DNA of 64,000 nt from contig NC_133897.1 in assembly GCF_964199755.1 (NCBI RefSeq), positions 121,912,552 through 121,976,551 of the forward strand. Reading direction: 5' to 3'. This DNA is from Larus michahellis. Taxonomy: Eukaryota; Chordata; Aves; Charadriiformes; Laridae. Numbering within the stretch: position 1 is the first letter of the stretch; the number at the start of each line of letters is the position of its first letter. Position numbers and translations under genes: made by a program. Below the pieces are notes generated by a model that was not told the DNA's origin, did not search any database, and saw nothing but the letters and a program-made list of their open reading frames with translations. This document shows, piece after piece, positions 17,201-63,308 of the stretch.

Positions 17201-17203
<3 letters not shown>

Positions 17204-17267: not shown

Positions 17268-17576
17268 TAGAGAGGTTGGTGCTGGTCACTTCTCACAGGC
17301 AATTAGCAATAGAACAAGAGGGAATGGGTTCAAGCTGCAGCAGGGTAGGGTTAGGCTGGACATTAGGAAAAAATTCTTCACAGAAAGCGTGGTGAGACAC
17401 TGGAATAGGCTGCCCGGGGAGGTGGTGGAGTCACCATCCCTGAATGTGTTCAAGACTCGTTTAGATGTAGTGTTAAGGGATATGGTGTAAGGGAGAACTT
17501 TGTAGAGTGGGGTTGATAGTTGGACTCGATGATCCCAAGAGTCTTTTCCAACCTAAATGATTCTATGATTCTATGA
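17268..17576 (+). mobile_element. CR1 LINE 3' fragment, sense
   Basis: A short, rather young-looking CR1 tail. It has CTTCTCACAGG, then GGCTGGACATTAGGAAAAA, TGGAATAGGCTGCCC, GTGGTGGAGTCACCATCCCT, GTTGGACTCGATGATC, and the diagnostic ending CAACCTAAATGATTCTATG ATTCTATG. The two tandem ATTCTATG octamers fix the 3' end. It is 5'-truncated and non-coding. It lies right beside the A28 run and the CpG island. Confidence 0.96.
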
Positions 17577-32600: not shown

Positions 32601-33569
32601 TACTGAACAGGAGCTCTGCCAACAAATCCAAATGTTAGAAGTGAAAAGTCTTCTATTTTTATATTGGCATCTTTCGTGTTTCTTCAGCAGCAACACACAA
32701 TGTAAGTAACTGTCAAACGAACAGTTGCTTTGAACCTCTGTATTCTGCTGTTGAACGCAGCAAAACCCTATTTCAAAAGTGCAGTCGAATGCATGTTTCG
32801 AGAAACAATATCTCCTCCTAATACTAGGAACTTTTCCCAAACAGCAAGAAATTGTACTTACAGAGATAATTTAGGGAATTTTCTGATGTATTTTCTCCTG
32901 AGGGAATGCCAATAATTCCAGGAGGACTCCCAAACTATTTAGTAAACAAAGCTAGGACTTAAGTTTTTAAAAACATATGAACCAAGGAACACATAATCTT
33001 CGTTATGGAGAAGCTGATGTTTCAAGGCACAGGCCACTGGAGAACATGTATCTGAGCAAAACCTACTCATAGTCAAAACTGAAAGCGAGCTGGTGCTCAT
33101 TTCCTATGTTAGCCTCAAGTCTTGAATCCTTAAAGTCAATGATATTTATCTATGACATGAAGGATAATACTACTATTTGGCTTTCTGTATAAGGACTTAG
33201 GGGGAGAGAAATAGATCTTCAGCTCCTACTGGTAAGTTTCCAATTATAGAACCGAGCCCTCCCTATGTTCCCCCCACACACACGCTCACCCTTTCTTTTA
33301 CCTGAAGTTTTGAGTGATACTGAAAGGGTGTTAGGAGATGCTGAATCTGTCCTGATAGACGTAAAGCCACTGCAGCTCCATGTTCTTGGCTTTAGCCAGC
33401 AGTGAGGTTGAGCACGTTTTCCCGATAGGCAGAGGGACACATTCCTGTAACGCACGTTACACCTGGCCGGCTCCACAGATCACCAGAAAAAAAAACCATA
33501 GCAGTCGCACAACACAAATGGCTGATCAGGATGAAGGCGTGCTAGTTGGAAATACGTACAGTGTGGGGC
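29623..33569. other. Intergenic stretch, no gene recognised
   Basis: AT-rich DNA without a recognised exon, RNA gene or transposon. It holds a small 12-bp triplet repeat at 31,156. Frames of 80-100 codons (for example 29,868-30,179 plus; 32,562-32,840 minus) look like chance. Confidence 0.55.
31156..31197. repeat. Three copies of CCCTAGTAAT(AT)
   Basis: Two adjacent 12-bp copies of CCCTAGTAATAT and a third, shortened copy after a 7-bp spacer. A small local slippage duplication. Confidence 0.75.
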
Positions 33570-34212
33570 CCCTGCAGCAGCTGGCCTCGCACACTCAGGC
33601 TGCCCAGTGGCTAGCCCCTGGATGCCAGGTCCCCCCAGTTGCTGACACGTGAACAGTTACAAGCCCTGAGGGCCACAGCCCAACTCCACTTGCTGATGCA
33701 GAGCCCCTGACTCCCAGCTATGCACACACCCCCAGAGGGACGCTACCAATACCACAAGTGCCTTTAGACACTTGGTTTACCCAGTAGCTGGCCCTGGGTC
33801 CTTGGTTTCCTCCCAGCTGGAGGCATCTAGGCAGGTGAGCACCCAATGCCCACAGTCCTACTCCAGTTGCTGGTACACAGGAGCCCTCTTGCTCACACCA
33901 ACACACGTACAGACGCACACCACTTTGTGGGTCCCTGCAGCAACTGGCCTTAGATACTAAGTCTATGCAGCAGCTGACCCTTAGATCTTCTCATCTCCAG
34001 TTGCTTTGCATACAGAGAGGCGCATATGTGGATGTGTCTCTTGGTCAACCTCCAGACTTCACGGTCTCCACAGTAGCAGGACCTCCTGGTCTCTCCAGTA
34101 GCCAGCTTCTCCAGTTGTCTCACACACAGAGGCTGACTGAGAGACTCCTAGATCCCACAGTCTTGCCTGTAGCTGGCTTAGACCTCCTGGCACCTCCAGT
34201 ATCCGGCTCTGT
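33570..34212. repeat. Degenerate tandem array, CCAGTAGCTGGC-type core
   Basis: About fifteen imperfect copies of a core like CCAGTAGCTGGCC, spaced about 20-70 bp apart. Examples are GCAGCAGCTGGCC near 33,573, CCAGTTGCTGAC near 33,635, CCAGTAGCTGGCC near 33,780, CCAGTTGCTGG near 33,862, GCAGCAACTGGCC near 33,934, CCAGTAGCCAGC near 34,097, and CTGTAGCTGGC near 34,166. Many are followed by a TTAGA/CCTGG/CACAC-rich half. This looks like an old minisatellite, possibly the internal variable repeat of a decayed LTR. No LTR ends were identified. A mixed A-rich run follows at 34,226-34,247. Frames read through it on both strands are by-products of the repeat. Confidence 0.65.
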
Positions 34213-34301
34213 GAAGGAAAATAATGAAAAAAAAAAGAAAAAAAAAATGATGTCCACTTACTGGTGAGACAGAACAGACATATAGAAGCAGAAAGCACTA
34301 G

Positions 34302-34760
34302 ATGGCAGCAGTGCTCAACTCGTTTAATTTAGATGCAAAAGTAGAGCAGTCACCTATATTCGGCAATGCAATTTCTATGTATTTCCCACGGCACCTGAGA
34401 CAGGAATTCGATACTAAAGACTGCGTAGATAAATCTTATAAAGCTAAAATTCTCAGTGAATACAGGAGGCAACAGCAGAATCAAGCAATCTTCCAACTTC
34501 CCACTGCCATAAGAAAAGACATGAGGACTAGTAATGTGACAGAACCACTAACTGTATTTCTCAGTATCAGAGGGAAAAATACCGTTCAGCTGGAGGTATA
34601 CAGCGCTCCTGTCTCATCTCCCACCTCCCACTTCCACAGGGCTGGGCAATGCCACCCCTCTCCCCTCTGCCTGCCACAGCACGGCCCTGGTGCTGCTGAA
34701 GGAAGGGAAGGAGAAACCTCCCACCCTGCTAAGGACTGCCAGTATCTTCTGTGCAATTAA
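34302..34760 (+). other. Unidentified 152-codon open frame
   Basis: A single open frame that starts MAAVLNSFNLDAKVEQ and is reasonably mixed in composition for its first 100 codons; the later part is Ser/Pro/His-rich. It lies between the tandem array and the CATSPERG retrocopy. I recognise no family, and it does not resemble CATSPERG. It may be chance, an unannotated exon, or part of a decayed retroelement. Confidence 0.15.
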
Positions 34761-34984
34761 TGGTGATGGCGAGTGGTTAATTCAGACTAGGCTTAAGCAT
34801 CAGATGGTTGAAGGAGAGCTGGTAACATCATAAGATCCAGTAAAAAAGGGTGGGTTTGGGCCATTCCCCTCCCCCTTCAATAATTAGGATAAAATAACTA
34901 TCTAGACATGCAGGTTTCTGACCTGTACCAGTTCCCTTGTGCTACCCAAACACTAGATGTGATCAAGAGACATGGCCTGGTAAC

Positions 34985-35317
34985 AGACAGTGTCTCTCTC
35001 GGACAGGGGGGAGCAGGCTACCCACCATGCAGCCTCACCTAGGGCAGCCCTAACCCCCCACAACTGCCATCGCAGGCCCTCAGCCACCAGGGACACAGTG
35101 CCCGCAGCATGGCAGATGCTGGTGGCCAAGATCTGTCTGTGCCTCTGCTTGCAGGGCCACAGGGGCAGCTCAGGCTGCAGCCACGCACAGCTGGCGTGCT
35201 CAATACATTTTGGCCACGACACAAAGCCAGCAAGAGACACCCACACGAGCTGCCATGGCACCAGCCCCCTGGTCCTGCAGCACCCTGGAGGGGCATGGCC
35301 CTGGCAGGGGGGAGCCA
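34985..35317 (+). other. GC-rich block abutting the CATSPERG retrocopy
   Basis: A locally GC-rich segment with no introns that runs straight into the recognisable CATSPERG frame. Overlapping open frames exist in all three plus registers, and none gives convincing CATSPERG similarity to my eye. The block may be a more decayed 5' part of the retrocopy, because the first recognised part of the copy is equally GC-rich, or host sequence of unrelated origin. Confidence 0.35.
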
Positions 35318-37388
35318 AAGGTGGATGTGGACCTGGGTAAGGAGATTTTCATCAGCCTGGAGGCTTTTGAGAGCTACCTCTCCCCACTCCCCACCCCCAA
35401 AGAGCTTGAGGCCAAGGAAGCCATTGTCAGCGCCATCTCCTTCATGGAGGTCAACAGACAGGTGTACTTGGATTTCAAGACCATTGACAGGTGGGATCCC
35501 ATCAGCAAGATTCACGTCCCCTGTGTCTGAACTCTCAAAAGCCCGTTGCTGCTACACAGGAGCAGACCCCCAGTGCAAGGGGCTCAGCTGGACACTTTTT
35601 GCTTACGACGCCAGGCGCTCTGTTTCGGTCAGCCACACCTTCCTTTCTCAGGATGGGGTTACACCTGTACCCGCATTGAGACCAGTACAACAGAGCAAAG
35701 AGTACTTCTAAGGGTCTACAGTTTCATCTCCTTTGCCATGACGGCCTGCTGATCGACAGAAGCAGAGAGCATGGGGCAGGGAAGGCGGCAGGGGCCTATT
35801 TCAGGTATAAGGGTGCCAAAAACACACATATGTCCAACCCTAGCTCTACCACCTTCCACCTGCTGTCCAAAGGCCCTGCTAAGCTTTGCAGTATCCAGAA
35901 CCACACCATGAGGGGTTTCATCATCCTCTAGACAACAGATACTTTGCTTATATCTGCCAACCATGGCTTGATCACAGAAGAAGTGACAGTTGTGCCCTCA
36001 GAGACCCTTCAAAGCACTACCTTCCCTGACAGCAGTTTCTTACTTGTGATTGTTAGTGGCTCCCAGATTGCAGTCTTGACCCAGGACAGACACGTCTCCT
36101 ACAGCAGCATCAGCCAGGTCACAAGTGTGGTGCACATTGCCAAGGATAAGAGCATGGATTTGAAAAACACAGGGATGTTGTTTGAAGAAACCTTCCTCAG
36201 TCCTGTGGTTAGCAATTTTACTCAGCTGTGTGACTTCAATAAATGCAAGCTCAACTTGCAGTTAGGAGTCTGGAGATCTCAGCAGTCCTGCACTGTGGAG
36301 ATCCTCGTGGGACATTTCTGGAACAAGATCTATTACATTGACATGCATGAAAGTTTGACTTTGAAGGCCGTATTTGTGCCCAATCCAGGCAAAAGGTCCA
36401 CTCCCTTGGTGACAGTGAGCAACCCCCATATGCTGGCTTTCAGTCAGTGCCTACGTAATAGAAGTGGAACTGACATATGGTGGAAACACCAAATACCTCT
36501 TGCATATAGTTCTGGAACAGCAGTATTTCTCTGAATTTGCAGACACTGACTTCTGCAACAATGTACGTGACAAGGAGATGTCTACTGTCACCGTGGACAT
36601 ACGTGACAACCCAATCGGTTGTATGGATGTGGCTCCCCTGACCGCACTTGTTGCGGTGTCCTGCCCACCTGCAGAGCACATCAGACTTGTAAAAAAATGT
36701 AACAGGACCTGACAAAGAACTCGCTCAGGAAGCGGCACTGAGAAATAATTTCAGTTATACAATCAGCCATAACATATTTGACTCACATTTTCTTGCCAGG
36801 AAAGATACACAGCAGGACAATCTACAGATCAAATATAACTTTACAAATCTGGGATGTCCTCTTCTGGTACATTATAAAAATCCTTGGGTGCCAAGTTTTG
36901 AGTTACAGGAAAGCAATAGATTTCAGGAGCATTTCCCTGCCAAATTTGTTCCATTTGAAACAAATGGAATGCACAACTATGATTATCTTTTGACTGCACA
37001 TGATGCCAACTGCATCTCTCAACCTCAAAACTGGACTCCTTCGCTAGAGGAACAGGAGTCTCCAGATCCACGTACTGCGTGCACCAGAAGAAACCGCATG
37101 AGCTGTAAGGATTGGAATGGACCTGAGTTAAAGTGGCCCTCAGTCAAGTATCAGGTTCTTGGTGGACATAAAAATAAGATCACCTTCCCTCCATACAACG
37201 GTCTATATATCTTTAAAGACATTGTAATGGATGTATTTTACAGTTATTGTGATTTATCCATAACCTTCTCAGGATATGTCTATAGCACTTTTCCCAGGAA
37301 CTTCGTACACTTCTGGGCACCGCTGACAGTCTTTCTGATTTTACTTTTGATTTTGACAAGATACTCCCTATCTCATTTATCAGTCTAA
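35318..37388 (+). pseudogene. CATSPERG: Intronless CATSPERG retrocopy (processed pseudogene)
   Basis: A broken, intron-free copy of the auxiliary gamma subunit of the CatSper sperm calcium channel, a one-pass protein with a large extracellular head. Family marks I recognise: DMHESLTLKA then PLVTVSNPH (36,343-36,430), GGNTKY (about 36,480), MSTVTVDI (36,578-36,601), LGCPLLVHY (36,849-36,875), SQPQNWT (37,017-37,037), VKYQVLGG, and YSYC before one hydrophobic helix (about 37,311-37,362). The stop is at 37,386. Lesions: frameshifts near 35,525, 35,655, 35,733, 36,440 and in A7 at 36,691-36,697, plus an in-frame TAG at 35,929. From 36,698 to the stop the frame is clean. It spans about 690 codons of a protein usually near 1,150, so the 5' part is missing or unrecognised. 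The multi-exon parent gene implies an mRNA origin. No poly(A) tail or target duplication is visible. Confidence in the family is high from the C-terminal half and lower for 35,318-35,700. Confidence 0.88.
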
Positions 37389-41597: not shown

Positions 41598-41832
41598 TCA
41601 GATATTATTGATAATAATCAGTGCAGGCATGGAGTTCTGCTGACTCGTTTCAAACAAAGTAACTTGGTCCGCTAGCTTGGCAAATACTCTGGGGGTTCCG
41701 AGATTATAGACACCTGTATGAACAAAGCAAGCTTTCAGCTGCAAGCTATAGACCTCCTGGCTTTTTAGTTGAAGCTTGTACTGTGTTTGCCCAAGCCATG
41801 TAAAAGATCCATGGATTTCTAATGCTTCTGGG
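41598..41832 (-). CDS. TRAPPC8: TRAPPC8 last coding exon and stop
   Basis: 235 nt of coding sequence. Acceptor CTCTTTCAG, then (S)PEALEIHGSFTWLGQTQYK, GVYNLGTPRVFAKLADQV and a C-terminus ending MPALIIINNI before TGA at 41,598-41,600. The last exon continues into the 3' UTR at lower coordinates. Confidence 0.97.
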
Positions 41833-44800
41833 CTGAAAGAGAAGATAACAACATTATTTGTCTGCATTTGAAGCATATATTACCAGTTTACATCATTCCC
41901 TCTGAGCTCCAGTTTTCCCAAGATAGAATGCACTGTGTCCCCCTGACCAGCCCATTACAAAGATATGCTTGTTTATGCTTCCTGAAAACTTATTTTCAGA
42001 AGTCAGGAGCTGGGAACTTAAGTTACTATTCTGGCAGCCTTTGGATGTGAGAGTGCCCGCTGCCACTTGTCTTTGATGTCTTGGAATTTGCTGAGTCTTT
42101 TTGACTGCTTGCCTACAATAACTTCCCTTAAGTCACCACCTTGCCCAAATGCATTGTGCTTTTTTTGTTCCACACATGCCCCTTATCTTTAATCTCAAAG
42201 TTTTTCTAGCAAGACAAAGCTAGATTTTGAACAGGTAACAGTTGTGACCATAGGTATAGACAGAACTGCACTTAACATTTTATCGAGATATTAAATGCAG
42301 CTTCAAAAAAGGTCATGTCTGTACGGCCTCTTTTCTACTGCATCCACATCCCCACAAACATATACACACACTGAGACAGATTACCTAAGGTACCCTTGGT
42401 TATCTTTATGCATCCCTACGTCTACCCATCAGCTAAATTTAACTCTGGGTCCTTACTTATTACCACATACTTTATGTTCTCTGACTCACACTTAACATGC
42501 TCATTGCAGCAGCTCTCCCCTTGGCTCAAATGAATCAGTACAAATCTTTACAGCATTTATTTTGTTCCTAGTATACTGTATGTTACATACAGAACATTAC
42601 TTATATGTATAATGATGAATTCCAGTGCATTCCTAGCTTTCTACAGAACAGGCACACAACACTAACAATAGACATCGTAAAAAGATCCAAACCGTCAGTT
42701 TTAGGAATTCCTATATAAAGCATTCTTATGCCTGTCCCAAGAGTTAGAGTTAAATCAGAGTTTATGTCACACAGAAATTATCAACAAGGATATACACTTC
42801 TTTAGGGACGTTGCATTAATAAGCTGTGGGGGTGTTGGGGCTTTGTCTGTTTTTAAGATGTTTCAGAGCACATGAACTACAATATCCTTCCAAAGACATG
42901 TTTTACAATGCTGTTATAAAACATCATTGCCTTGTGAAAAAACACCAGATCAGTGAATACCTTCCTATTCTTAACTGATAAATAAACCAGAAGGCTTAAG
43001 TCTTCCGTCCTCTGTTTCTGAAACTGTGTTCAGAAGGCTCTGTGCTTTTAACTTCTTACTTGCCTGGGTGGACTGTTGGCAAGAAGCCAATGGTCCCCCA
43101 TGACTAAGCCTACCTGAGTGTCTTCAAGAATCTGCCTCCCTCCCCAAGAATATTCAGTCAAGAATATCACAGTCTGTTCTGTGGTAAGCAGATCAAGTAG
43201 CATTATGTCTACCAGGGGCAGAAGGCAGGGAAGAGGAGATGCCACCTGAATTACACATGAGTTTTAAAAGAAGCAGAAGAATTTACAATGGTATATCATG
43301 GTACTGAATTCTCTCTCCCACCAAAATCCTTAGTAAAGCTTTTAGAAGCGATTCACAAAACATTTCCTCAGTGCTAATGTTTTTGCACATAATACTTCAG
43401 TTCCAAGAAAAAAAACTAGTCATAAGAATCAGCTGATAAACCTAGGGGAAGCATTAAAAATACCTTTGGCTTTTATACTAAGACAAACTGCAGTAGGATG
43501 TACTTGTTTAAGCTTCAAAAGTTGTTTTCTACAAATTACTTGATATTTTAAAAATGAACACTCAACAATGTATGTTTAATAAAGTAAGGCTACTGAAGAT
43601 CAAAAGCATTTCCACTTTCCTAGAAAAGCTCTGCAGAGTTTAACTATTCAAGAGTCACAATTCAACTAGCAGTAGTCAGAACCAAAGTAAAATTTGAGCA
43701 CTGACTGAAGACTCCCATTTGACTGTATGAAGTCTTTATCACCTTCCATTCTTTCAAAGAAGCCACTGTTGAAAAAATCCTATTCTAGATCTTTAATATA
43801 GTTAAAACTTTAAAAGACTCCCCAAAACTAAGAAGCATTCTCAGAAAGTACTTTTAAATTAACATTCATACATTACCTTGCTGTTTTATGCCTCAAATCA
43901 ATCATCACATCTACAACAGCCTGGGAACAATTGGAAAGTAGGAGAGTGACAGGTACCAGACAGAGGCTGCAACGAGAAATAGTTCCATAGTAAAGGAAAA
44001 ATGTCTGACTCTGGATAGTCTTAATTATACTCTTAAATAGTTAAAATAAATTCCAAGTATGATAAAATTAACATGCAGTTTTCTATTACACAACAGTCAG
44101 TGTACACAGCAACATAATCACTTACATTGACTAGAGCAAATTATAGTAAAAGCTATTAGTTGAGGCAAACAGCATTGGCTCAACTGAGGCAAATGAAGTT
44201 ACCACCCTCCTTTGCCCAGCTGAGAAAGGCTAGCAAAAGCATAAATACCGCCTTATTTTACAGGAAATCTACTGTTACGACAAGAGACATTTCAGAATGA
44301 GATAACGTGGTCTAGTATGCTATTCTCTGAACTGCTGTTTAGTACATTTTGTCTAGGTACTTTTCTTCTGCACTGCCTCTTGTAAAGGAACTGCCTAGTT
44401 TTAGCCAGAACAGCGCCCAAACGGAACAGACAGCACATACACATTTAGTGTTAATTTAAGACTTTACCCTGAATAAAATTAATACAGTTAGTTGATATTC
44501 TGCTTGTTCACAATTAGTATGATTGTTTTTAGAAATAATGCTGCAGCAAGAAAGACCGCAAGATATTCACAGGCAGGTACACAGACTACTGCAGCTGCAA
44601 CAGCTCTATGTATGCAACGAGGGATTGCTATTGCTTAACAGTTTAAATATCCTAAACTTGACCAACAAGAAAAGAACAATTACCAACTTCAACGAATAGG
44701 ATATGAACTTGTTAATTCATGCTTTGTAACTGACATTAAAATATGCCACGTTATAAAACATTTAAATGATAGGTTTTATAAAGAAATCCCTTTCTTTTTG

Positions 44801-45010
44801 CAACTTACTTTATTAACTGAAATTTCAGAAAAAAGTTAACACAGTAGAAGTTATCAGATAAATCAACTCAAACATAAATAGGTATCTTTATGTTTTGAGT
44901 ACAGTTCATTTCATATCTGGAAATAAATCCAGGGGGCTTTGTTCATGTATTTTAATTTTGAAAGATTAGTGGATTTTACAGGCCCCAACTAATTCACTCC
45001 AGCAATCTAC

Positions 45011-45041
<31 letters not shown>

Positions 45042-48000
45042 GGTTAATTCTGATATTCCTCCAGGTGACAAGCCCCAGTGATCTGATTTGTTACCATCTT
45101 TTTTTCTGACATAAATCAGAACCACGTGCAGCTAATCTTGGCAAGTCAGATGCTGTAGACATAACAGTTCTTTTGACTTAAAAGTGCCTCTTACTTTCTG
45201 TCTAGCTTCTCAGAGTAGTCACACTGGTTACTCTGACACCAAAAATAAACAAAGGCAGCAGAGTATTTATTTTTCTTTCGGTAAGTTTGATAACATTACT
45301 TGTTAACATTAAAACTGTGAACTGTGGTATTACAGCCTGTTTCTCTACACGAAACTGCCATTTTACCTATAAAATTCTGAAGAAGTGAGCTTAAGAATTG
45401 AGCAAGATTTCATCTTTGCATACCAGACTTATCTTTTGTATCATAACCCACATAGCATCTCTCAAGAGGACTTATGTCAAATTAACAATATTTCAAAAGT
45501 TTCTAAAGAAAACATTGTACTAACCTTTTTTGCTGAAAAGAATGATTGAAAGACTCTGGATAATGAAGACTTGTCTTGATAAGATTAGAAAGCTGCTCTG
45601 GTGTTGGTCTAGCAGGTACTGGTGTGTTTTCTGGTCGAAAAAACTTTAGGAGAACCATTTCTGGTAATTCCTGAAACACAAATTCAGAATGACATTTAAA
45701 ATACTGATATAAGGTACGGTGCAATGCAACACAAGAAATCCAGTCACAGAAGCCACGATTTTCCATTATGAACTATAACTCCAGGGAAACAAGTCTACAG
45801 AATCATGACACTTACAGTTTTTTTCCCCAATGTGTTTTGTATTTAAGCATGCTAGATGAGGAATTGATATGACTTATCTGTTACCTTATTTTCAGACAGA
45901 TTTCACAGCTGCTTGTGAAAACATGTCCATGCAAGTTTCACAAAAGCATGCTATTGTTGCAGTAGTTTGTTAGTGTTTGGTTTTTGTTTTGCCTCTAGGA
46001 AAAAGGGATAGCATTTACACAATTCCCTGTTCAGCAGCTGTACCTAAAATAACCCCAAAATATCCATCACCTGCCCTGGGAAGTTCACAACAGGAAAACC
46101 AATGTCCAAGTTTCCCAAAACAGATACAAAGTAAAGCAAACAGAAGTTTATAGGAAGATGCTAGCAACGACAGAAGGATTTAATGCAGAGTATCTTAAAA
46201 ACTGTATAGCAAGCTCTTGCAGATATGGAAGTTACCTTTGTCCCCAGCTGAAAACCCAAGTCAAGCACTGACACACTACTTGGGATTCATCCTAACCCCG
46301 TGGGCAGAATCAATCTCTGAAGCAGAAGAAATTAGATGATACAGCAAGATGCAACACCAAATGAGGCAATCAGGCTGCATTTGGTCCAGCATTCCAGTGC
46401 TACTGTAACTCTGTCCAACATCATCTAATCTGTTTTGCAAGCAGGATTTATTCAGGAAGGGGCTGACTTTTAGTATACCCTTATGAATCTATTCTGCAAA
46501 AAGTACACCTTTAGAAAAAAAAGAAATTTGCAGCAATAAGCATGACTGACTACTAGAAGCATGTGAAAGAATATTTTAAAAAGCCATCAATAAGTCAGTA
46601 CAGTGTAATAAACTAATACTTTTCATTTAAGGGTGATGGATTGTACCTTCTAAATTGAAAAGAAATACTATCAGCAACAAAACCTGACTCAAAGTAACAG
46701 ACACACTGGGTATTCTGCAATATGTATGAACGTCTCAGTCACTGTTTGCCTGTGCTGGTAATACCAAGACAACATCAAATGTTTTATCAGGTTTGCAATT
46801 CTTTCCTCTTGAAAGAAAGAGTAGTTTTCTTAAAAAGTAATTTGAGAAGAAAAAAGATATTTCACAGTAACAATGAAATATATTTTAAGCATTGAATGAA
46901 TATGGTATTTCCACCCTACCCTACGGTTATCTAACTTTATGAAAATTGACAACATGAAACACCCGAGAGATAAGATTACAGGTTTTCATTTAAATTATCT
47001 TTCTCCTCAAATTACAGTCCAACCAGTTATTCAATGCCCTCGACCACATATCAATATCCTACGCACTGTAGTTTGCCCTAGAGTCAGTTACCTGTTCCAA
47101 GTCCTCCCAATCAGAATTCCCGAGTATTTTTTTAAAACCCTACAAAAGACAAATACGAAGGTTTATCTCTACAAATAGACAAGAACATCATGAAATGCAG
47201 CAGGAACATTTACTGGTGAAAGTACCAGAGTGCCATTAATATTTAAAACCTTTAGTTCTAATATCACACCTCTGTTGAAGGACTGGAAAGCAGTAAGATT
47301 AACCATTTACCATCACAGAGCTAAACCTTAATTCCAGTCAGCCTCTGGGTGTCAGATTCAGAAGAGATATCTGTCTCTCCAAGTTCAGCTGCTCAAAGAC
47401 TAGTTTTTTTGCAATTGTGTACCTAGAACAAAGGCTAAAACATGACATTTAGTACATGATTCTCTTACCTAATGGTTCAGCACAGAATTAAGCACTTCCA
47501 AATACAGCTGTGCATACAGATCAGGAGCTGGAGGCAGCTAATAAGAAATGCTAAGTTTAAGGATGCATAAAACTCCTGCCCTACTCTGGAGCTTGGGAAA
47601 TTGGATCAAGGCTTGAAAAAAGGTGTCCATACCTACTTGGGCACCTGTATCCTCCCTTCAAGAATATGCACAAAGCAGGTAACAGCCTCAAGTCTTTAGG
47701 TTATTTACGCTTAGAAACAAAGTAAAAAAAAAAAAAAACAACTGAGAAGTAAACAGATAGCATTTTGTTGCTGAACTCCTAGAATACCAGTCCAAAGGGA
47801 GTACTGCCTTTTTTAAGCCAATAACAAGAATTCCGACACCTAAAGTCTGCTTGTTGACCCATTACGGTTCCTTCCAAAGACTCCAGAAGTGCCGCAGGTT
47901 CCAATAGACAGCAAACACCATATACAAAAAGGCCAAAACAATGGTTAAGACGTTCCCTTTAAAAAATTGCTTAAGGTGTAATTTGAAGGTCTCATTCATA

Positions 48001-51000
48001 CATAACGGTAGAGGTACAGATAACTTGACTGGAAGAGCCTTCATCATAAGAAGAGTTTGGAAGAACTGTACACAGGGGAGTTACTGTTTTAAATTTCATA
48101 GCTGCATTTTTATGCTTTTTGGTTTTTGACTCAAAGCACACAAAGGGCAGCAGCACCAGAACCACACTACTCCCACAGTTGCTTTCCAAGAGCTACATAC
48201 ACACTGTGCAACTGGTGCTAGGAAAGCTGTTTCTATTCTTAGAAAAGTTTTTGCTGCCCATAGCCATTTACAAAGGCTAGCTTCAAACAAATATACTTAA
48301 AATTAGACACAAGCCTACTGTTCCAAGTAGAAGAGTCTCCATATCTTCGCTTATTTCGTAGTTATAAAAAAGCCTGGATCTTTAGAGTCTGATGTTTAGC
48401 TACTTTGAAACAAAGTTACATACTATCACTTACACTTCTGAAATTACATATTAGTCATTCACACTGGATTTAGATATCTCCTGCAACTGCACTAAGCTAA
48501 AAGTTTGAAAAGTCAGAACTTACACCATTCAAAACATCTTTTGCATTATCTGATAGATGCAATAGACAAGTCTGTCTATAACGTATTCTTTAATATCTTA
48601 GAATGCACTTTCAAATTGAAAAGTTCTTCCTTTCCATCAGATGGATGGAAGTGATGGTATCTTTACGTGCAATCATTTTAAAGGATTTTTCTACATAATT
48701 TTAGACAACTTGAAGTTTTCAATTTCAAAACCAGTCTTCTCAATGACTTGGGCAATGTGCTCTTAAACGTACTAGGAGAAATTAAGCACCACAATTTGAT
48801 TTCCAAGTTATATGGAAATTCAGCACATTTGCCCTATAAATCACAAGTTACACGCAGCCAAAAGGATTATTAACATGCTCAGTCAAGTATGAAGGACCAA
48901 TATGCACAGCATACAAGAAAATCTACATAGGAAACTCTGGAACAACACTAAGCATAAGTAAAAGCAGAATATATGAAAGCAACACGTAAGACAGAGATCC
49001 CAAGTGATGTGTCTTTCTCCCTCTCCCATTTTAGAACAGAGAACTTCCATTTCAAAACCTCAGTTTTAAGTCGGTTTCCTTTACCATGTAACTCATCTAC
49101 ATTTATTCTAGCTCCTAACTATAGAAACGACGACTCCAGGAATAGTATTTTACTAAGACACCAGTAATAATGCATCTGAAAGCATAAATATTGTCATCAG
49201 CTCTGCAGTCCATCAATGGGTAAAGCATCAGATACAATTTTTCACCTATTTCGAATATTTCATTCATGACAATAACGTAAGTCAGTCCTCACAAAATCGG
49301 TACAGTAACTGGTACATTAATTCAGAGTAAAAATGTACACTTCAGCTCTTGATGTTTACTCTTAAGAATTTTGCTTTCCCCCCACTAAGCCTGTTTAAAG
49401 CTGTGTTTGACTCAAGTATCCCTCCCCATGAACTCTGTAAAACAAAAAAAATATGAACTAGCATAACATGTCACTTCCAGTAATTCACTGTTAGGAAAAG
49501 CAAAATTATTTAAACCCTACCCTCTCCTACCTTTCAAAATTCCTACTTCCAACTGAACTATTGCTGCCTCACTAAGTTACATCTACATTAAGAAGCAGTG
49601 TTACCAAAAATAATCATCTCTCAAATGCAATGCTGACAACAAGCCTGCATCTGTGCTAAATGCATTTATGGATTTTACTTTGGGCTAGCACTGGTCTAAT
49701 CCACAGGACTGACTGAGCAGCACAGAAGCACACCATGTGCAGTCCTGGAGCATATCTAGATTAATTCTGCCTGGCAGCTCTCCACTTTGTGCGTTACAAG
49801 ACCACTTCACAATGAAAACAGAGTGCTGTACATGGGGACAGTCTCTTAAAAAAAAGTATGCCTGATCTAAAACACACTCGTAGCCACTTTATCTCATCTA
49901 GACTTCAGTCAAAACTAAGTTTACACTCACATGCTAATGTATTTCAGAAGTATGGACACAGTATTCACAACATGCCAGCATGCCCAAGTGACACGCCTCT
50001 ATTAGATTGCTTCTCACCTTCCATCAGTGTGAAGGCTTTGCCAATCCTAAGCGTGGCAAATGCCCCAGCCCCACACTACTACTTCCATTCCACCGCATTA
50101 CACTGTGCTTTTCCTTTTGGATTGAATTCATCAGATCAGAAAAATATGGAAGACGGCAATAAGAAATAATATTGATCAACAGCCCTGAATGAACAGATGT
50201 TTAAAGTATCTGAAATTTTAGTCCTTTTACTAAGTTATGGTAGAGAGGTCAAGAACAAGAGACAGAATAGCTGTATTTCAAGTGCAATCGCAAGTTGACC
50301 TTCAGTTAAAACAACCTGATTCCTGAATGTAAGTTTCAGAAGAGAAACGGAACCCATAGCAGTATCACTGTCAAAAAAGAACAGCCATTGGTTACAAATA
50401 CACAGCTAATTTTTATTAGTGAGGCTTTTACTATTTGGACTCTAACAGCTACTGCTAACACATCTTCACACCTATTCACTTTAACATCTTACGTGATTTA
50501 TTCTTCACACACCATTGCTAGTGACTGTAATGTATCACTTTGTGGCACCTTTTGTGGTTTGATTCAAGGAAATAAACTATATTTAGCATTTTTCCCTACC
50601 TTTAGCAAAAGGCTATTTTTGCAAAAAAAAAGTGAGAGAAAGGATAGGAAGATAAATGTAAGCTTTTCTATATGAAGCTTTTCAGCAAGCTTTCTATATG
50701 AAACAAAGAAATGCTTTAACAGAGTCAATATTCTTTAAGTGTTCCTTCAGCATACTATGTGTTACAATTCCAAACTTCTAGAACATAAAGATGCAAGTAG
50801 CTCATCACATCGCTTGATAAGTCTACTGTGTCCAGTAACCTATGCTCAAAAGCAATGCCATGGAGTTAAATAAAAAAAAAAACCACATTGTAGTGTAAAA
50901 GAAAAAAATTGTATTCCATGGCAGAAAATTAGTAAGCTTCAAAGTTACAGTTATCATTGTCTCGGTTAGAATGAAAAGAGTTCAGCATTCACAATTCTGT

Positions 51001-54000
51001 TTTGAACACGGGAAGAAAAAGACGCACATGTATTTTGACCTTCCAAGTAAAACTGTATAGAATTTTACTGTTATTTTCTTTCTTTTTATGTGGGTACATA
51101 CAGAAATTTTACGCAGAAAAATATTTTAAGCCTCCTGCAAACCCCACTACCTTGTGTTTTATAGAAAGCAGAGGTCTTATCTTGATTTTATCAAATACTA
51201 TGGCAAGTTATGCCACTGCAATACAGGAATAATCGCATCCTGCTGTCTGTTCCACATCCCTGTTGTATGCATTAAATGTTCCACAATGAACCATGCAGAA
51301 GTAACCATCTGTCCTTGCACCTCAGCCAGTCTGACATCTTAGCTTAGATATACGATAAAGATGACATTATATCAGTACACCCAACTACCAATCTACCAGC
51401 AACTGCTGGAAGAACTTGAGAAACACAATAGTGCCAATGAATACAGACCCACTGCTCTTATACTACACTGCTTTCCTGCAGCTTTGTTTCCCTGAACAGT
51501 TCTAGAAGCTTCTATAAATCCAAACTAAATCCTTAAAAGCTGGCAAAGAATTTGTCTGAGAGATACCATAGTCAAAGCAGCAGAAGCCAACCAGTACATA
51601 CAATTTAACCAACATATAAAGCAAGCTATCTTAATTTGTTCAACATAGTTATTTGATGAATTCAGCTGAGAATTGAGTCATTTCTCAGAGGGCTAAAAAA
51701 AAAAAAAAAAAAAAGAGAAAGGGGCTACAGAGAGAAGTCTTGTTTGCGTTTTCTCCATGTCTATTGTGAGACTGTTCTTGGCTGGGGATGGCTGTATTGC
51801 CAGACAAAAATTCCTTTCCTGGTTGCAACAGCAGGAAGTAGAAGCAGCCCAAATCAAGAGGAAAGTTGCTGAAGAGAAATACATGGAACAGACTCTTGCA
51901 TCCTAGGTGACACCCTATTCATAATCTGCAAATAAATCTATTTTTTCAGATCTGAACAGTTCTTTATCATTTAAGAACTGGTAACCAACATGTGTTGGTA
52001 AAAAGCATGTATCTCCATCTCCCTCTGCTGTCTAGAGGACAGAAAACAACTTCTATACTGTCATCACAAGACATTCAGGAACAGTCTAGAGTTTCCAACC
52101 CTGTTTATGACTTAGAGAATAAATACAGATTTACAAGACAAACTACTTGAATGTGATGTTATAAGTCTTGAAACTATATATTGGAAGTGTTAAGATAGAA
52201 GTAACTTTTGGGATTTCCCCCCCTCCCCAGCTTTTTACTGCTTGTATAACTTTAATGCAAGAGCACGGTAATTCAAAGGCAATGTGCAGTCCTTAATACA
52301 GTAAGTATATAATTTTCTCTAGCCTCATTTAATCCTATTTTGGGGGTTCTTTTAATTTTTAAGTGTGCACAAAGTAAATGGCTGCGAGGTCTCAAATCAC
52401 TTCATTTTTTATACCTCACCTCCCATCTCAGCAGAGTTTATCTACTCTCCTCACAGTACAGAGTGCCAATTAAAAAAAGTAGTACATGAGCATATGAAAT
52501 TTCTCAATTCTCAGCAGTCCTGAGATTACGGGCTCTTAAAATACAAGTTAAATCTGGGCTTTGGTTACCATGGGGACAGACTTTACGCATTTATTAAAAA
52601 CAGCCACCATTACTCTTATACCAGATTTCAACTGCATCACAACACAGATGCATTTTTGCTTCAAACCCAGGTACAGAATGTTTCAAAGGAAGTATGTTCC
52701 TTATGCTGAAGAAAGTTAATGCAATAATCAATATAACATCTATTTAAATGTAATTATAATAATAATAGATGAGAAACAGATTATAGACAGAGAATGCTAA
52801 TGTAGTAGCATGTTTTCCTTAAAACAAATCGAGGGTACAAATGGATCCTCCTTGCTGCTGGTGGCAAGATTAATTTCTTTTAGTTTGAAACTGAATTTCA
52901 TCCGGACAACTAGATTTCCAGTGCAGTCAACAAGAAACATAAGTTTCTATACCTAGCCTGTTCAGTCATCTATTTACTTTAGGATGCACATCTGATTCAT
53001 TCCTACTTCTCTTCCCACCTGTTTGCTAGAACCAAACCTCAGTGAGATCAGAATTAGTCCACCGTCTTTTCTCTCTTAACTTCAGATGTCTACAGTGTGA
53101 TCAACTGTTCTACGTACGCCTTAAAACAGGAAAGGTAATACCACAGTGGGCAGTTGTCATTAGACCAATACAGCCTAGTATTGCTCAGCATAGCTTGAGC
53201 CCACATGTGCAGCAAAGGCTCTTTTTTTTTTGGGGGGGGTGGGGGGGTGGGGGAGCAGTGTTAGGTGAAAAAAATAATCTTCAGACATTAGAACTTGAAC
53301 TGTCCTATTTTTCAGTACCAAAGAACACCAGCCAGTTTAGCTCAAACTACATGTCCCTTCCCGTCCATTTCATAGCACAAAGAACCAAATGGAAAAGTCA
53401 TCTTAATGATGTAAAAACACTTAAAGGCTTATGAACCAAAGCCAAGTGCACAGCTTCAGAGTAATTCACTACTTACATTATAGCATGGTATGTATAGAAA
53501 CATAAATTTGTCCTACATTGTTTTCTTGACAAAATTAATATACAGTATTACCTGCTGCACTTTTGAGTAAGAGATCACTAAAAGCTATATATGATGTTTG
53601 CAACATTGGCAAGAACATCACAATGGCACCAAAGCAAGACGGAACAGCAAGGTACTGCTCAGAAGACTAAACAAGACTTGTTTCTTTTTATTTTGCACAT
53701 TAGTCTTCTTCACACGCATAAATTGCGTCTAGTATAGACGTTTTTACAGAAACTTATCTATAGCTTCCATAGTTGCTACTGATTCATGTACCAGTAGACA
53801 TCCACCAATTTCTTACAGATGCTATTTTCTTTGAACAATCAAATAGGCTATAAAACTTCAAAGTGAAGTAACATGCTATTAATGGATCAATTCTAATGGA
53901 GCTTTCAATATCTTTTTAACTGCTCCAGTGTTTCTGCTGTTCTAACATTTTATACTAAAGGTCTTCACTTAAAAGTTGCACATAGAAGAATTTATAAAAT

Positions 54001-57000
54001 TGATTTTGTAACACTCAAAAATAATTTCACCATTTTACTATTAGCCTTGTTATGAAACAGTTGTTAATTTTGACTTAGTACCATTAATAAGCTCCTAGTT
54101 CTACCCTGAAATACCACAGAACAGTTTACTCCAACAACTGCACAGCAGTATACTTACTCGTATATGCTCTTCTCATCTTTAAACTGAGCCTAGCTATTTC
54201 AATACAGATGACTAATCAAAGGTGAAGTAAGTAAATCTGAATTACTTAGCAATAACACATATCTGATGTTAGATTGTACAAAAGCACCCAAAGTGATTCC
54301 ACTTATTTACAAGAAAACACATCAAGTCTATTTTGGGAAACAAGCAATTGTAAAGGACAGCTTCACACCAGATTACCTGCTTCTGAGGAAACGAAAAAGC
54401 CTCCTTCCCAACTGTATTAAGGGCAACATGATGCTGGCCCTCCAAAATAAGCTGCTTGTTGTCTTCCACAACATATGCCTACAGAACACAACACAAAGAC
54501 ATTAGCAGACCAGAGACCGTCATAAGCTTCGTAATACAGAACTACTGACTTCGCCCTAACGTAAGTGAAAGATGTTGTACTGTTCAAAACCTAAAGGCTG
54601 GCATGACATATTTATTTTATGTTTATGCTTCCAATTTTGAAAGCACAGACAACTACTGAAGTACAGACTGCCGATTTCCACTACTTAATATTCACATTCT
54701 GGTAAATGAGATCCTCTTCTTCAAAGCAGACTGGGTTACTCTTACAGTTCTATGATAAAAGCAAGCATTAACAAATCTTAGTTTAAGATTTCAGAATCTT
54801 CTCTTTTAAGAGGAGAACTTGTAAGAACTGGGTGCATCCAAAATAACGTAAAACCACTTAAGCATACTTATTACAGTAACAGCTACTAAGACTGTCTTTG
54901 CTTCTTGACACCATTTTAGCTCATTTGACTGCTCTCTAAAGAAATTCATCCATAAATTTTGTATGAGTACTCCGGAAATTCAGGATGCCATATTAAATTT
55001 TTTTTCTAACAGTCATACTTCACAGCCAAATTACTGCAAAGGCCACAACCATACATACCTTCCACAGTACAACAACATTCAAATCAACTTCACTGCATCT
55101 TTGTATCAATCGGACTGTCTCATCAAATGATTGCTTCACAGCCCTTTGAGAAGCATGAGTATGAGACTGCACATGCGTTCTTTTAAATTCAGATGATAAG
55201 CTTTGAAAAAAAAAGTCTGCACAAGGACTGGCTGAACTTATTATCTGCAAGAAAAAAAAAGCAAGAAAGACTGCTCTCAGAACAGGATGCAAGCTAACAC
55301 AAGTTACTCTAACACAGCTCACTGCTGTAGTACTTCAGTTCCATCATCTTGCTTCTCCTTGCAAACCTACAGGATGCCACACATTTTGGTTTCCATACTT
55401 GCCCTGTTAGAGATCAGCCCTACCTAATGAACTGTCTAAGCGAAAAAGAGCTATAGATTATTGGCCCAAAACTACAAATACCAGAATTGGAAATAAGGGC
55501 TTTGATGATTATCACCAGACAGCCTACTGTGATGTATCAAGCATAGTGGAGAGAGCTGAAGTGTCCAACCCACAAAATAAGTCACATACAAGTCTTTATT
55601 GCTTATTAATTCGGGTTAGCTAGAATTATCAAAGTTAGGAACATACATTTTGCTAGCAACAGCGAAGGCAGATTGCATAGCATATTCCCCATGTACAAGT
55701 GGCACAGCAGAAGCACTGTGCTGTTTGTCAAGTTTGTTATCATTTATGCTGAGCTTTTCCAACACCAAAAGCTTGATAGGAAAGCAGTGGTTTTAAGACT
55801 GACAGCAATGATACTTGGAGACAGCAAGATAAGTAAAAAACAAAAGACTTTAGCTTCCTAACCCCTCCCTTTCAAAAACGTTCCCCTTTCCACAAGATGC
55901 TGTTGCAGAGCTGCTAATTGTTGCATTAGCAGAATACTCATACCCAGGGAGACAAAAATCTGCTTTTGGAGTAACTGTCTAGAAGGGAGGTCCCCCTGCC
56001 CACCCCCCCATTACAGAACATTTTCTTATAATAAAGCTGAAGTTCATGCAGTTCATCCAACTTTGAAAATGCAAAGAGGGATCATCTACCTCAGATTTTT
56101 AGTCCTAACTTCAAATTTATACTCCCAAAAAATGAAGTGGCACTGAGTAGGTTTTCTTTGGCTTTTAAAAGCTGGATACATATATGAAAAGCGTACACTC
56201 AGCATAAGGCAGTCTGAAATTTCATAGGCAGTCTGAAATCCAGCTAACTAAATCCACTATGCTGATGTAAATTTCTGATCTGATGCAAGTGGCCTACTTT
56301 CCTCACATTTTGAGAAAGCATTCACTGTACCAAGGGCATTTGCTAAAAGGATTCTTCTTCAAACAACACCTGTATGCTTAAAAAGATTAAAAGAGCATGA
56401 CAGTTTAGAATCTTAAAGTGTTGGGTTTTTTTTTGTTTTTTTTTTTTTTAAAGAAAAATCAAAGAAACAGACTCCTTGAACTGCTTGCAACCTACATCAG
56501 CAGTTTTGAAATTTTGGTACCAACATTCATCAGAGGTTTCCAGATTATTTTTAGAATAAGCTCTAATTAGAGTTTTTAACTTATCTTATAAAAATATAAT
56601 TAAGAAAAAAACAATAGAACAAGAATCTGATATCCGCAGATCTCTACTAGAAAACTAGCAAGCTGGGAAATATTCAGAAGAACTGCTCTGAAGAGTTGGA
56701 AAGGAAGGAAAACATTAGCAAAGAAATTAGCATCACAATGCACTAGCAAATTAGTTCAGCTGTGGAGTTAAAATTCCAGGCTACCCACTAGCCTATGCAA
56801 CCTTACCTTCTCTTTGCAAAAGAGTTGACCTGGAAGACCAACAGTTTCTGACGTGCAAAACTCATCTTCCCAACTATTAACACACTGTTCCCATTTTTGA
56901 ATTTTAGAAGAGGCTTTCACTGGGATACTTGCACATGACAGGGATACCTTGCACAAGACTAAATATGCAGTTGCACCAGTTCACCTACCTGTTCATTTCC

Positions 57001-60000
57001 AAAGACAATGTCTGCAAATGTGTAATTTTCTGAGGGATAAAAAGAGAAGGCATTGTTTCAGCATCACGAGAAGTTACTTCAGCATACAGCATCCAAATGG
57101 TATTTTCTTCAAAACATTACCGTATTCAGGAGAAAACCTACCTTCTGAGTTTTTGCACCTTACTGCTTTAAAGCATAACTTCGCTCTCTCTCTGCTAGCA
57201 AGTTTAGTATCTGAAAGAAAAAGATTGCAAGATTTTTTCCCCCTCAGCATAATCAGATTCCCTCCTGATTAGCCAAAAGTCAGCCTTTAAAATCCACAAA
57301 TAAAACACACACTGATGATACTCAAGAAGCACAACTAATCAAGCAGAGCAACTGCATGGTAGTAAAGATGTTGCATTTTCTGTGACTGTATGGTAGTAAA
57401 GAAGATGCATCTTCTGCTGACCCCTTCCATCTACTTCTAGAGCAGGAAGTGAGTCATGATACATAAAGATACAAAGAAAGAAGGAACAGAAGACAAAAGA
57501 TTCAGTTTTACATAAATGGTTCACCCTCAATATTAATACAAGAGGAATACATGCCTAGAGCAATTCTGATGTACATAAAATGTCAGCATACAAGTAATAA
57601 TAACATTTGTCAGATACAGTAACAGCACTTTTTTTTGTCCAGGATAGTTAGCCTTTTCAAAAATTAGCAGCTTGTATTAGTTAAGGCAGGATACAGCAGT
57701 AGCAATTCTGGTATGTTTCTAATAAGTGACTAGAGCACTTACCAAATACTCCGTTGCTCAGTTAAATCCAGCACTGATATAAATAACTAAAAGTAAAGGA
57801 ACACTGAAACGTATTTCTTGTGAGGCAAGTTATAAGCCAACACAGACATGGATTTCTCTACCTCACAGAAATAATTTATCTGTAAGTTAAGCCTATTTTT
57901 AAAATTAATGATATCTGAAAGTTATCTGTCAATATACTTTTCTTGAAACACTAACAAAAGAAGGGCTGTAGTATGTTTGAAACAAAGTTTTTAGAAGTAA
58001 GTATTCTGAAAGCCAAATTGAATTCCTTGTATGATTCCTTTAACAGTCCTTATCACACAGAAGCAAGACTTGCCACCCTTTTGGTGATAAAGATACACAC
58101 CTTTGTCTTCAGAGATGTTAACAGATTTTTGAAGCTTCCAGTGCTTGCTATTACTTGAAACTTGCACTATATGAAATTCTTTAACACCAGTCTCACTCTA
58201 AGGAAAAAACAAAAGTTATGTCAAATAAGACCAGTCACAGTTGTGATGTTCCACAACACATGAAGTGTTCATTGCAAGGTGGCACTGTTAGAATCTTAAT
58301 TTAACTCATTATTCACACCATCCATAATACAATACTAAGGAGAAATAAGGAGATTTAAGACCCACTGTAAGGTTAAACAACAGTCCCAGCTCACAGCAAC
58401 TTCCAACTCCAGTAAACAAAGCCACACAAAGAGGAAACAAAAGATCCCCCAGAAAAATACCCACAAGCTAGTATTTTAGATTAAGACAACTATAAAAAAA
58501 ACTAGGCTTTTAACTCCAATGCAGAACACTGTCGACAAGGCCACTTAGTTTTTAAGATTACTTTAGGAACATTGCTAGCTGGTAAATCCCAGAAATTCAA
58601 GAACTTTTTTTATCATATATACACAATGAAAAGTAGCTTTCAGTGTTGGTTTCCTTCCTCAGAAAGGGCAAAGTGGTAGTGGAAAATTAAGTCTCAACGT
58701 AATCTGATAACTTTGTAAGTACTTTATAAAACATCCCTTCCTCCTCAAAGGAGGATTGGACAACATTCACTTTCATAGCTGAAGAAAAAATGCCGAGTGC
58801 ACACACCTTTGAAACAAAATGACAAATCAGGTCAGTGATTCCACTACCAGCTAAGTGTCTAGGAATTCTTTAAGCAGAGGATTCAATTACCTTGCTTGAA
58901 AAAATGGGAGCAGGTTTACCAAAAAAATGAGTAAATTTAAATTAGTGTGGTATGACAGAATGAAGTATTTTAGTCTGCTTTGCTAAGTCAACAGATCACA
59001 ACATATATGGATACAGACATATCTGTATTTGGATTATATTTGCAAAAAACATCTTTTAGAACTTGGTAATACATGTAAACACAGAAGCTTCCTTCAACTT
59101 GGAGCTTAAATTTTTGACTTCACAATACCACTTATTCCAGCAGTGTTTTCACTGAAAGGTTGCAGGGGGCACACATCTCGTTCAGAACTATCTTGAAAGC
59201 TGTGATCGTCAACAACATTCATTAATTTGGAATAAGTCTTCCTAAAAGAAAAAAAGACTCCGGGCTACAGTACTGTAATTCACTTAGAACAGAGACAGTT
59301 ATAAGCAGACTTCCAGAGAGTTGAGATATAACTTAATGTCAGTATTCTCTTCCCAACAGTAACTGGAATGATTAAATATGCAAGGTTTACTTAGCATTTG
59401 CAGAATAGTTGTAAAAAACCTTTTACTTAAGTCTTGGTTCTAGTGGTGACATTACACATCTGCTGAGATTTAGAACCGTATTATTAAAAATAAGAACTTA
59501 CGGTATTGATATTTTCTACATCCACAAACACCAACATACTGTCCCCTCTGCCTTCTTCATCTTCAAGTGCATTACTTCTGCAGACAGTAGCTCGAATATG
59601 CAGAGACCGGCTAGTACAAATAACTGCAGTGTGCCTTAATACCCTATGACTAGGAAAAGTGGAAGAAAAAAAAAAAAAAGAGACATTCTGAACAACCAGG
59701 ACTGCCATACAGAACTTGTCATCAGGAAGTTTAGCTTTTATGTTTGCCTTCAATACTAAGGCCATTAGACAATTTATTCCTTTTAACCAGAGACACTTTT
59801 TAGGTTCCTATCAGAACTACATTATTTTTAATAGTCATGCTGCATGGGTAGTGCTGTTCAAACATGCAATCTCTTAGCCACTTTGAAATACTGGAGAAAG
59901 GTTCATAAGTTACCATGATAAAAAATACACCAAAAATATTTCTGGTGTAAGGTAACTGGCACAGTGAAAGCAAACAGGCATGTATTGGGAGAGGGATGTC

Positions 60001-63000
60001 ACTGAACTATTTAATGCCACCACATGCTTTTTAAAATAGAATTTTTGAGTAAATAAACCATAAGAGGTCCACTAGTTAGTCCCATCTCCTGCATAAATAT
60101 TTACTAAAAAGCATTTAGACAGAATACCACTGCATTCAACAAATTCCCCTGAACCAAGAATCTTGGAAGTTTACTTCTAGAACCATCACTACTCTGCCCT
60201 GCCTTTTTCCAGACAAGCTCAACTTCCAGGCCAACAAGCCCTTTGTAAAAGTTATCTTCCTGTTTTTCTAATGATGAATAAACTTACATTCTTGGACACC
60301 ATCAAACACATGAGCTTTTCCCATGTAGAAGTTTGTGTTACCATAACTTCCACTTGGAAACATTAAAGGCATGTAAAAGTCTGACACATTACCAACTAAA
60401 TATGCTGAAACATCACGTAATACTTGTTTTGGGAGGGGAAGAATCAGTGGTTTCCTAAACTCTACTCAACATAACATCACAATCTACAGGATAAACTTAA
60501 CAGTTTCGCAGTTAATCTTCAGAAAGATACACAGATGTCTGTGTAACTTTCAAGTGTCACAAACTAAATTGTTTTTTTGAAAATTTAAAAGCTATGCTCA
60601 GTCTACAAAGAGTACTGTTAAACAAGACCACATCACTTAAGTTTTCCTGGAAACTTCAATGTAGTAGGGAACAAATATATTCCCTAAACAACCACCTTCC
60701 ATCTCTGAAACACCTTGCTTTCTGAATACTATGAACTCAGAGGAGAAATAAGTTCTATTCTTAAAAAAAAAAAGGAAAGAAAAATAACTACATTGTAGGG
60801 GAACAAATTCCCTATTCCTACAGACTAGTTTAAAGCCAAATGAAAAGTTAACTGGCTTTTCAAAAGCTACAGAAAAATCTAAACAAAGGGTGCATTCGCA
60901 TGGCTTTTAGTTTAATTTCAAGAACATGCCACTGATCCACTCTCTTGATCAACTCACTTTGCTTTGGTTTACATTACAGAGCAGTCTCACAGCACATGAA
61001 CTTGGTTTCTTTCTCAGAACTAGCCTGGAAAACAAGCTCCAGCCACAAGCAGACATTCAGTCCATGCAACTAGAGGTTATCTGGAGTAGCCCTGCTCCCC
61101 ACCATCATCCTGAATATGTACAGTAAAGACACTCAAGTATGTTGGTTTTGGCTGTAGTAAGAGTCCAGTTTCTTCACAGTAGCTGCTAAGGGGCTATGTT
61201 TTAGGTTTGTGCTAGAATCAGGGTTGGTAGTAGAGGGATGTTTTCATTATTGCTGAGCAGCGCTCACAGAGTCAAGGCCTTTTCTGCTCCTCACACCACT
61301 CCGGCAGCGAGCGGGCTGGGGATACACAAGAAGCTGGGAGGAGACACAGCCAGGACAACTGACCCCCACTGACCAAAGGGATATTCCATACCATATGATG
61401 TCACGCTCAGCAATAAAACTAAGGAGGAAGAAGGTACGGGGGACATTTGGAGTTACAGCATTTGTCTTAAATAACACATGATGGAGCCCTGCTTTCTTGG
61501 AGATGGCTGAACACCTGCCTGCCAATGAGTAGTAGTGAATGAATTCTTTGTTTTGCTTTGCTTGCATGGCTTTTGCTTTACCTAAACTGCCTTATCTCAA
61601 CCCACAAGTTCTCACTTCTACCCTTCCAATTCTCTCCCCCATCCTGTCAGGGGAAAAGGAGCAAACAAGCAGGCATGTGGAGCTTAGCTGCCAGCTGTGG
61701 TTAAACCACACCAGGTCCCCAGCTCTGATTACAGATCCACTGTCTGCACAGCTTCTTAAGGTGGGCAGAGACACATTCTCCAGACAAACAAATCTAGCAC
61801 ATGCAGCTCCATCATAAATTTCTCTCCCAGAAAATTAAGTAGTAACATTCATTAAATCTGTGGCCATTATTCTTAGTGGGCTAAAAACTAAATCTAGACA
61901 AAGCCTGTGGCAACTTTCTCAGCTCTAGCTATGAGCTCCAACAGCTGTAAGGTAGCAATGCAAGAACAGTATTTCCAGAAGAGTGAAAGAGAAGGGATAA
62001 AGAGACAGTCTTCATTTCTGAATTTGGCTGTTCGCTAGATTGCTACACTAAGGCTTCCTGAACACTGATCTCCACTTTCTGAACAAAGGCCTATTCAGCC
62101 CAGAATCTTTGAAGAACAGGTTTCTCAAAAAAGTTATCTTCTGAGCCTTCTTAGCCTGGGACATGAGTGGGATTTGGGAATAAGTGAAACAAAGTCAACT
62201 TGCTACCTTTCAAGTTAAGTTCAAAGAAAGCACTATTTGTTAGCTTGTGGTGTCAAATTTGACTGTCCACTGTCTCAAAATGGTCTAAAAAGGAACAATA
62301 CAACAGCATGCAAGTCAAACTTGGTATTTAAACTCTTCAAAGAGAATAACTTTCATCATAGTACAGTTACTAACCACATTCTAATGAAGAGCAAGACCTT
62401 TTGTTCAAAGTATACAAGATTGTTTTATAGCATGCAGAAACACTTAACGAGTTTTTCCTCCCTATGCCTCAGAAAGATGTGCTTCCAGAGAAATTAAATA
62501 CGAAGAGTCTGTATTAACGTTATTCCATTAATCCTCCTTCTACTAAATAATTTTAGTAATTACCACTTCGATAGAAGTGTAGGCTATGTAATTTCATACG
62601 GAAATTAGATCCTATAGTAGAAAAAATTATTGCTTAGAATAGCAGATAACCAGCCACATTTACACCATCACAGCAAATGAGAGAAATTCAGTAAAATTTA
62701 CATGTATGCTTACAACATTTATAATGTGTCCAATAAGCATGACAAAAAAGTAGATGATAAAAACTTACCACATTTTTGAGTGTCTTTTAATACTTTCATA
62801 GTAAAACAAAAAGTTAATTTCATGAACACCTTCCTCATCTGGTCCCCGTAACCACATTGGCAGCTGAACTGAAGCCCCAGGAAGAAGAACAGCATCAGGA
62901 AGTGGGACGTGTATTACTTCAGGCTGACCTCCTGTGCCAACCCCAAAGTCTACAGAAGAAGCTGAAGATAGCAGTGCTGTACGCACAGAGGTAGGATCCG

Positions 63001-63211: not shown

Positions 63212-63308
63212 CTGTATGGGAGAGAACAGGAGAAAAAAAAACCTGAACGCTGAACCACATTGCGATTGGGCATGAATACAACAATGAACATATTTAAACT
63301 ATATTGCT

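Follow-up and report, generated by a model that had tools for sequence, protein, structure and literature searches.

Genomic context of the relic

The window analysed here, a stretch of 64,000 nucleotides from the gull Larus michahellis, contains the gene TRAPPC8 and, beyond the 3' end of the latter, a coding relic that is read as one protein across several frames (Table 1). The proximity of the relic to TRAPPC8, proposed in a preliminary description of this DNA, was borne out by the TRAPPC8 domains and exons found in the window. The last coding exon of TRAPPC8, located by tblastn with the human protein as a query, occupies positions 41601–41834 of the minus strand, and the relic lies ∼4.2 kb beyond the TRAPPC8 stop codon in convergent orientation. 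A search of the window with the B4GALT6 protein gave no sign of that gene. When a 6-kb segment (positions 33500–39500) was used as a query, repeats were detected only at 33519–34136, which we take to be CR1-like, and none at the edges of the relic; carriage of the relic by a repeat or an LTR element was therefore rejected.

Two further features of the window are recorded here as such. Just 5' of the relic, at positions 34302–34760 of the plus strand, there is a single-copy open frame of 152 codons with no Pfam match. At positions 16057–17285, overlapping GC-rich open frames are found on both strands, clustered beside A/T runs, and this region is perhaps a promoter island.

Table 1. Positions of the features in and around the relic (numbering of the window).
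Feature	Position	Strand	Evidence
Old dispersed repeat upstream of the copy	33519..34136		40 other matches, all falling within 33519–34136, most near 70% identity (6-kb query; repeat counts are lower bounds)
Intronless, broken CATSPERD copy	35321..37388	+	Frameshift-aware alignment; joined reading
Beta-propeller part (PF15020), in several frames, with TAG at 35929–35931	35321..36246	+	Profile matches at 35321–35521, 35511–35657 and 35719–36246
Ig-like CATSPERD domain (PF23747), in two frames	36295..36658	+	Per-frame E=8.3e-20 and 1.2e-23
Last open frame, 231 codons, with PF22850 and one transmembrane stretch (∼37308–37355, by eye)	36693..37388	+
TRAPPC8 exons	41601..63217	-	TPPC8 Ig-like Pfam domains in three of ten frames scanned; tblastn with human TRAPPC8, nine pieces

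The relic derives from CATSPERD

The segment is a relic of CATSPERD (delta), an auxiliary subunit of CatSper. Frameshift-aware alignment of mouse CATSPERD to the segment gave a score of 797, whereas the reverse complement scored 43 and five shuffled versions of the DNA 39–45; it spans positions 35321–37358, the last open frame continuing to 37388, and 226 of the 654 aligned residues are identical. The frames were then fused into one protein, with an X at every join and at the stop (hereafter, the joined reading). This reading produced a single unbroken match to residues 60–732 of the 805 residues of mouse CATSPERD (PDB 7eeb chain G; E=1.6e-87), whereas the match to CATSPERE was much weaker (E=6.3e-19). 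Along 2.07 kb it matches three CATSPERD models of Pfam in order, namely the beta-propeller (PF15020; profile positions 21–329 of 329, E=1.6e-41), the Ig-like domain (PF23747; positions 1–120 of 120, E=6e-46) and the C-terminal domain common to CATSPERD and CATSPERE (PF22850; positions 1–199 of 215, E=2.9e-61 within a single open frame). When six frames were scanned separately, PF22850 was matched in the last one, PF23747 in two and PF15020 in two, and two of the six had no match. The domain order is the same as in mouse CATSPERD (7eeb chain G and 9ubw chain G), from which the gull copy differs in its broken frames, in the absence of homology before residue 60 and in the short tail that follows the transmembrane stretch.

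The C-terminal frame alone retrieved four PDB sequences at E values up to 1, two of CATSPERD and two of CATSPERE, the best E values being 5.5e-41 and 2.6e-19 (7eeb chain H), respectively. Identity with CATSPERE was rejected, considering both the lower scores and the fact that the propeller and Ig-like models matched by the gull copy are those of CATSPERD.

The preliminary description had rightly recognised the segment as the remains of one of the auxiliary subunits of CatSper, but had assigned them to CATSPERG. The general layout is common to CatSper auxiliary subunits, but not a single CATSPERG family match was obtained at E values up to 1 in the six frames, and the Pfam frame scan, the PDB matches, the match of the joined reading and the CATSPERD-specific propeller and Ig-like models all point to CATSPERD, so that the CATSPERG assignment is refuted for practical purposes. 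The motifs on which it was founded (VTVDI, LGCPLLV, SQPQNWT and YSYC, plus a transmembrane stretch) are present; their counterparts, however, are SVTVDI, LGCPRLV, SQPQNWS and YSYC of CATSPERD. Restriction of the homology to the C-terminal half was too narrow, since the propeller, Ig-like and C-terminal domains were all matched. The wrong gene name does not weaken the main point of that description.

An intronless and broken copy

The match covers 673 residues of the mouse protein in ∼2.04 kb of DNA, with gaps of no more than 5 residues and extra runs of no more than 4 codons. Mammalian CATSPERD consists of many exons. Given the continuity of the match, the relic is therefore an intronless copy, and it is from this absence of introns that we infer its origin by reverse transcription. 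Taken together, the data make it very probable that we are dealing with a processed copy of CATSPERD, which is now a pseudogene. According to this scenario, a CATSPERD mRNA would have been reverse-transcribed and then inserted just past the 3' end of TRAPPC8; the enzyme responsible and the date of the insertion would be matters of inference.

The alignment places seven frame changes, near positions 35514, 35657, 35698, 36131, 36160, 36473 and 36699, and there is one in-frame stop codon, TAG at 35929. The changes at 36131 and 36160 cancel each other, the frame around them being open in any case, and those at 35657 and 35698 together amount to one net change; therefore, at least four net frame changes are needed. 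Several of them are located near homopolymers of 4–7 bases, so that individual ones may represent assembly errors. An intact CATSPERD reading frame is nevertheless absent, given the stop codon and the at least four frame changes. Judging from the sequence, the copy would have no role as a part of the channel, because these lesions preclude a full-length protein.

The ends of the copy bear none of the hallmarks searched for. No run of seven or more A residues is present at positions 37381–39500, and the segments 34950–35340 and 37389–38400 share no 11-mer, nor a 14-mer with one mismatch, that could represent a target-site duplication. Both poly-A tracts and target-site duplications are expected to erode with age. 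No homology was found upstream of position 35321. As regards the N-terminal part with its signal peptide, a frame at 35116–35313 offers a plausible start by eye, but nothing ahead of residue 69 of the query was matched, and an N-terminal extension from 35116 thus gained no support.

Search for a parental gene

The assembly searched comprises 1,405,500,149 bases in 616 contigs, the window being located on contig C2. Its beta-globin, pieced together from exons, confirms that the host is a bird: 12 distinct PDB sequences were matched at E values up to 1e-80, all of them bird haemoglobins (324 to 305 bits), and bar-headed goose (1a4f, 324 bits) ranked above ostrich (3a59, 317 bits) and emu (3wtg, 307 bits), an order that leans towards a neognath. 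At the DNA level, the sequence of the copy matched only itself throughout the assembly. A 690-residue protein query yielded five matches at E values up to 10 and the PF15020 profile three at E values up to 1, all of them at the locus next to TRAPPC8. With PF22850 (E values up to 10), the same locus was retrieved along with four others, which had E values of 3.2–7.5 and were thus at chance level. These searches score only the best candidates, and a strongly decayed parent could escape them; multi-exon genes were nonetheless recovered, as illustrated by the Lon family exons (four matches on C27 and three on C4). Since no second CATSPERD locus was found, the copy appears to be an orphan fossil, the original gene having gone from the genome. 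Survival of the parental gene in this lineage, which the preliminary description had considered, is accordingly unsupported by the protein, DNA and domain searches alike.

In mammals CATSPERD adjoins LONP1, which in the gull is located on contig C27. Within the 120 kb around LONP1 no CATSPERD was detected, either by tblastn with six pieces (best E=0.089, as compared with 0.054 for the reversed control) or by blastn (best E=0.078). A gene upstream of LONP1 resembles SLC1A6 (by eye), which indicates that synteny is rearranged there, and the gene order around LONP1 is different from the mammalian order. As for the landmark DUS3L, five matches to the Dus family were found, confined to C1 and C18 and none on C27. 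Immediately upstream of LONP1 (C27:1626122–1628890) lies an open frame of 923 codons that by eye resembles a CR1 reverse transcriptase and possibly belongs to a young CR1 copy.

CatSper remnants in birds

In mammals, CatSper governs calcium entry into sperm; that most birds have lost it is a long-standing puzzle. As a processed pseudogene the copy described here is of a common type, and what makes it unusual is the gene concerned: it seems to be the sole CATSPERD remaining in the genome of this bird. Since the copy is nearly complete and datable, it could show when coding constraint on this subunit ended, irrespective of the other subunits, and a route to such dating is to seek the orthologous insertion next to TRAPPC8 in further birds and in reptiles.

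The published accounts are not uniform. Birds have been described as devoid of CatSper and CatSper-beta, chicken and zebra finch retaining short fragments in a degenerate state (PMC2572835). Among the birds examined elsewhere, CatSper was retained only in Apteryx australis and Tinamus guttatus (PMC6660944), and CATSPERB was found only in a ratite (PMC4290089). Fragments of CATSPER3, B, D and E were reported from zebra finch, and CATSPER1, 4 and G from ratites (PMC6679542), whereas another study disagrees, with only CatSper1 missing in birds (PMC11289002). The view that birds lost CatSper, taken up in the preliminary description, consequently needs to be qualified, since retained members or fragments are reported by three of these papers (PMC6660944, PMC6679542 and PMC11289002). 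A parallel case is STK33, a unitary pseudogene in neognaths (PMC4509753).

CATSPERD remnants in a bird are thus already in print. The zebra finch fragment, likewise from a neognath bird, comprises 267 bases (MUGN01000898.1:10200480–10200746), is labelled highly partial or truncated and has its synteny marked 'traced through phylogenetic relationships' (PMC6679542); the gull copy, in contrast, extends over 2.07 kb and is intronless. The chicken and zebra finch fragments of PMC2572835 are also CatSper remnants of birds, but they are short, derive from CatSper-beta and CatSper3 and lie partly at the expected syntenic place, whereas the gull sequence is a retrocopy of CATSPERD. Among the titles and abstracts searched, none describes an intronless, nearly complete CATSPERD in birds, and none of the papers searched mentions CATSPERD together with TRAPPC8.

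Retrocopies are scarce in birds, with 78 reported in chicken (PMC3136929), and orphan ones are easily overlooked. In the VGP survey (PMC13320880), each genome was queried for retrocopies with the mRNAs of its own annotated genes; therefore, a retrocopy whose parent has vanished would be missed by such a survey.

Decay of the copy relative to other CatSper subunits

For CATSPERG, the propeller profile PF15064 produced a single match in the whole assembly, which fell below the cut-off (19.3 bits against 27; E=0.187). CATSPERB survives as decayed exons with stops: the CATSPERB_C profile (PF15149) gave three matches over the cut-off at C4:40750047–40752472, plus one at E=0.8, and the best of them matches residues 942–995 of mouse CATSPERB (E=4.6e-5). 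The three exons (41, 42 and 54 codons) contain four stops in 137 codons, a count that relies on the Pfam ranges and, in part, on the human sequence; one further stop lies beyond the matched 54 codons. The CATSPERD copy has one stop in 689 codons (Fisher's exact test, one-sided, p=0.003). The contrast depends on one exon, as p rises to 0.23 when the worst CATSPERB exon is left out; if the four stops are counted over the 83 codons of two exons, p=0.0006, the choice of exons being post hoc. We regard this as weak evidence that CATSPERD, be it the parent or the copy, stayed under coding constraint for longer than CATSPERB. The lower number of stops in the copy is a weak hint of one of two histories: either the insertion came late, or the copy took over from its parent as a retrogene and decayed afterwards.

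Under the former scenario, the parent was alive in the lineage and was copied within approximately the last 40 Myr, being subsequently lost or lying outside the assembly. The stops and frame changes of the copy correspond to d of ∼0.02–0.03 per site, or roughly 3–37 Myr at a rate of 1.9e-9, which agrees with such a history. It requires, however, a living CATSPERD alongside a decayed CATSPERB, followed by complete disappearance of the parent, and we consider it possible but rather doubtful.

Alternatively, the insertion could date back to an early phase of sauropsid or avian evolution and the copy have become a working gene, with the parent lost and decay setting in late, perhaps after that of the rest of CatSper. 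No parent was found assembly-wide or in the 120 kb around LONP1, and the stop contrast with CATSPERB points in the same direction. Furthermore, the finch fragment is located at 10.2 Mb of its contig (PMC6679542), whereas the gull contig carrying LONP1 is only 6.85 Mb long; the finch fragment may therefore represent the same moved locus. Against this stand the dependence of the contrast on one exon and the rearranged synteny at LONP1, owing to which the old CATSPERD site may lie outside the stretch inspected. Replacement by a retrogene is, on balance, unlikely. Its most specific version, which we hold to be more unlikely still, is that retroposition to the side of TRAPPC8 took place in a bird ancestor and that the copy, with its single exon, took the place of the multi-exon parent and outlived the rest of CatSper in this lineage; in palaeognaths with a retained CatSper, the delta subunit of the channel would in that case be encoded by an intronless gene.

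A point against a pseudogene is that the last third of the copy remains open for 231 codons, which could reflect constraint. Conceivably, translation of this C-terminal frame, with its single transmembrane stretch, persists and is maintained by selection for a new role, and its 693 bases contain neither a stop nor a frame change. Such a putative product would be a very improbable survivor: finding none of five disablements in the last third of the copy has a chance probability of 0.13.
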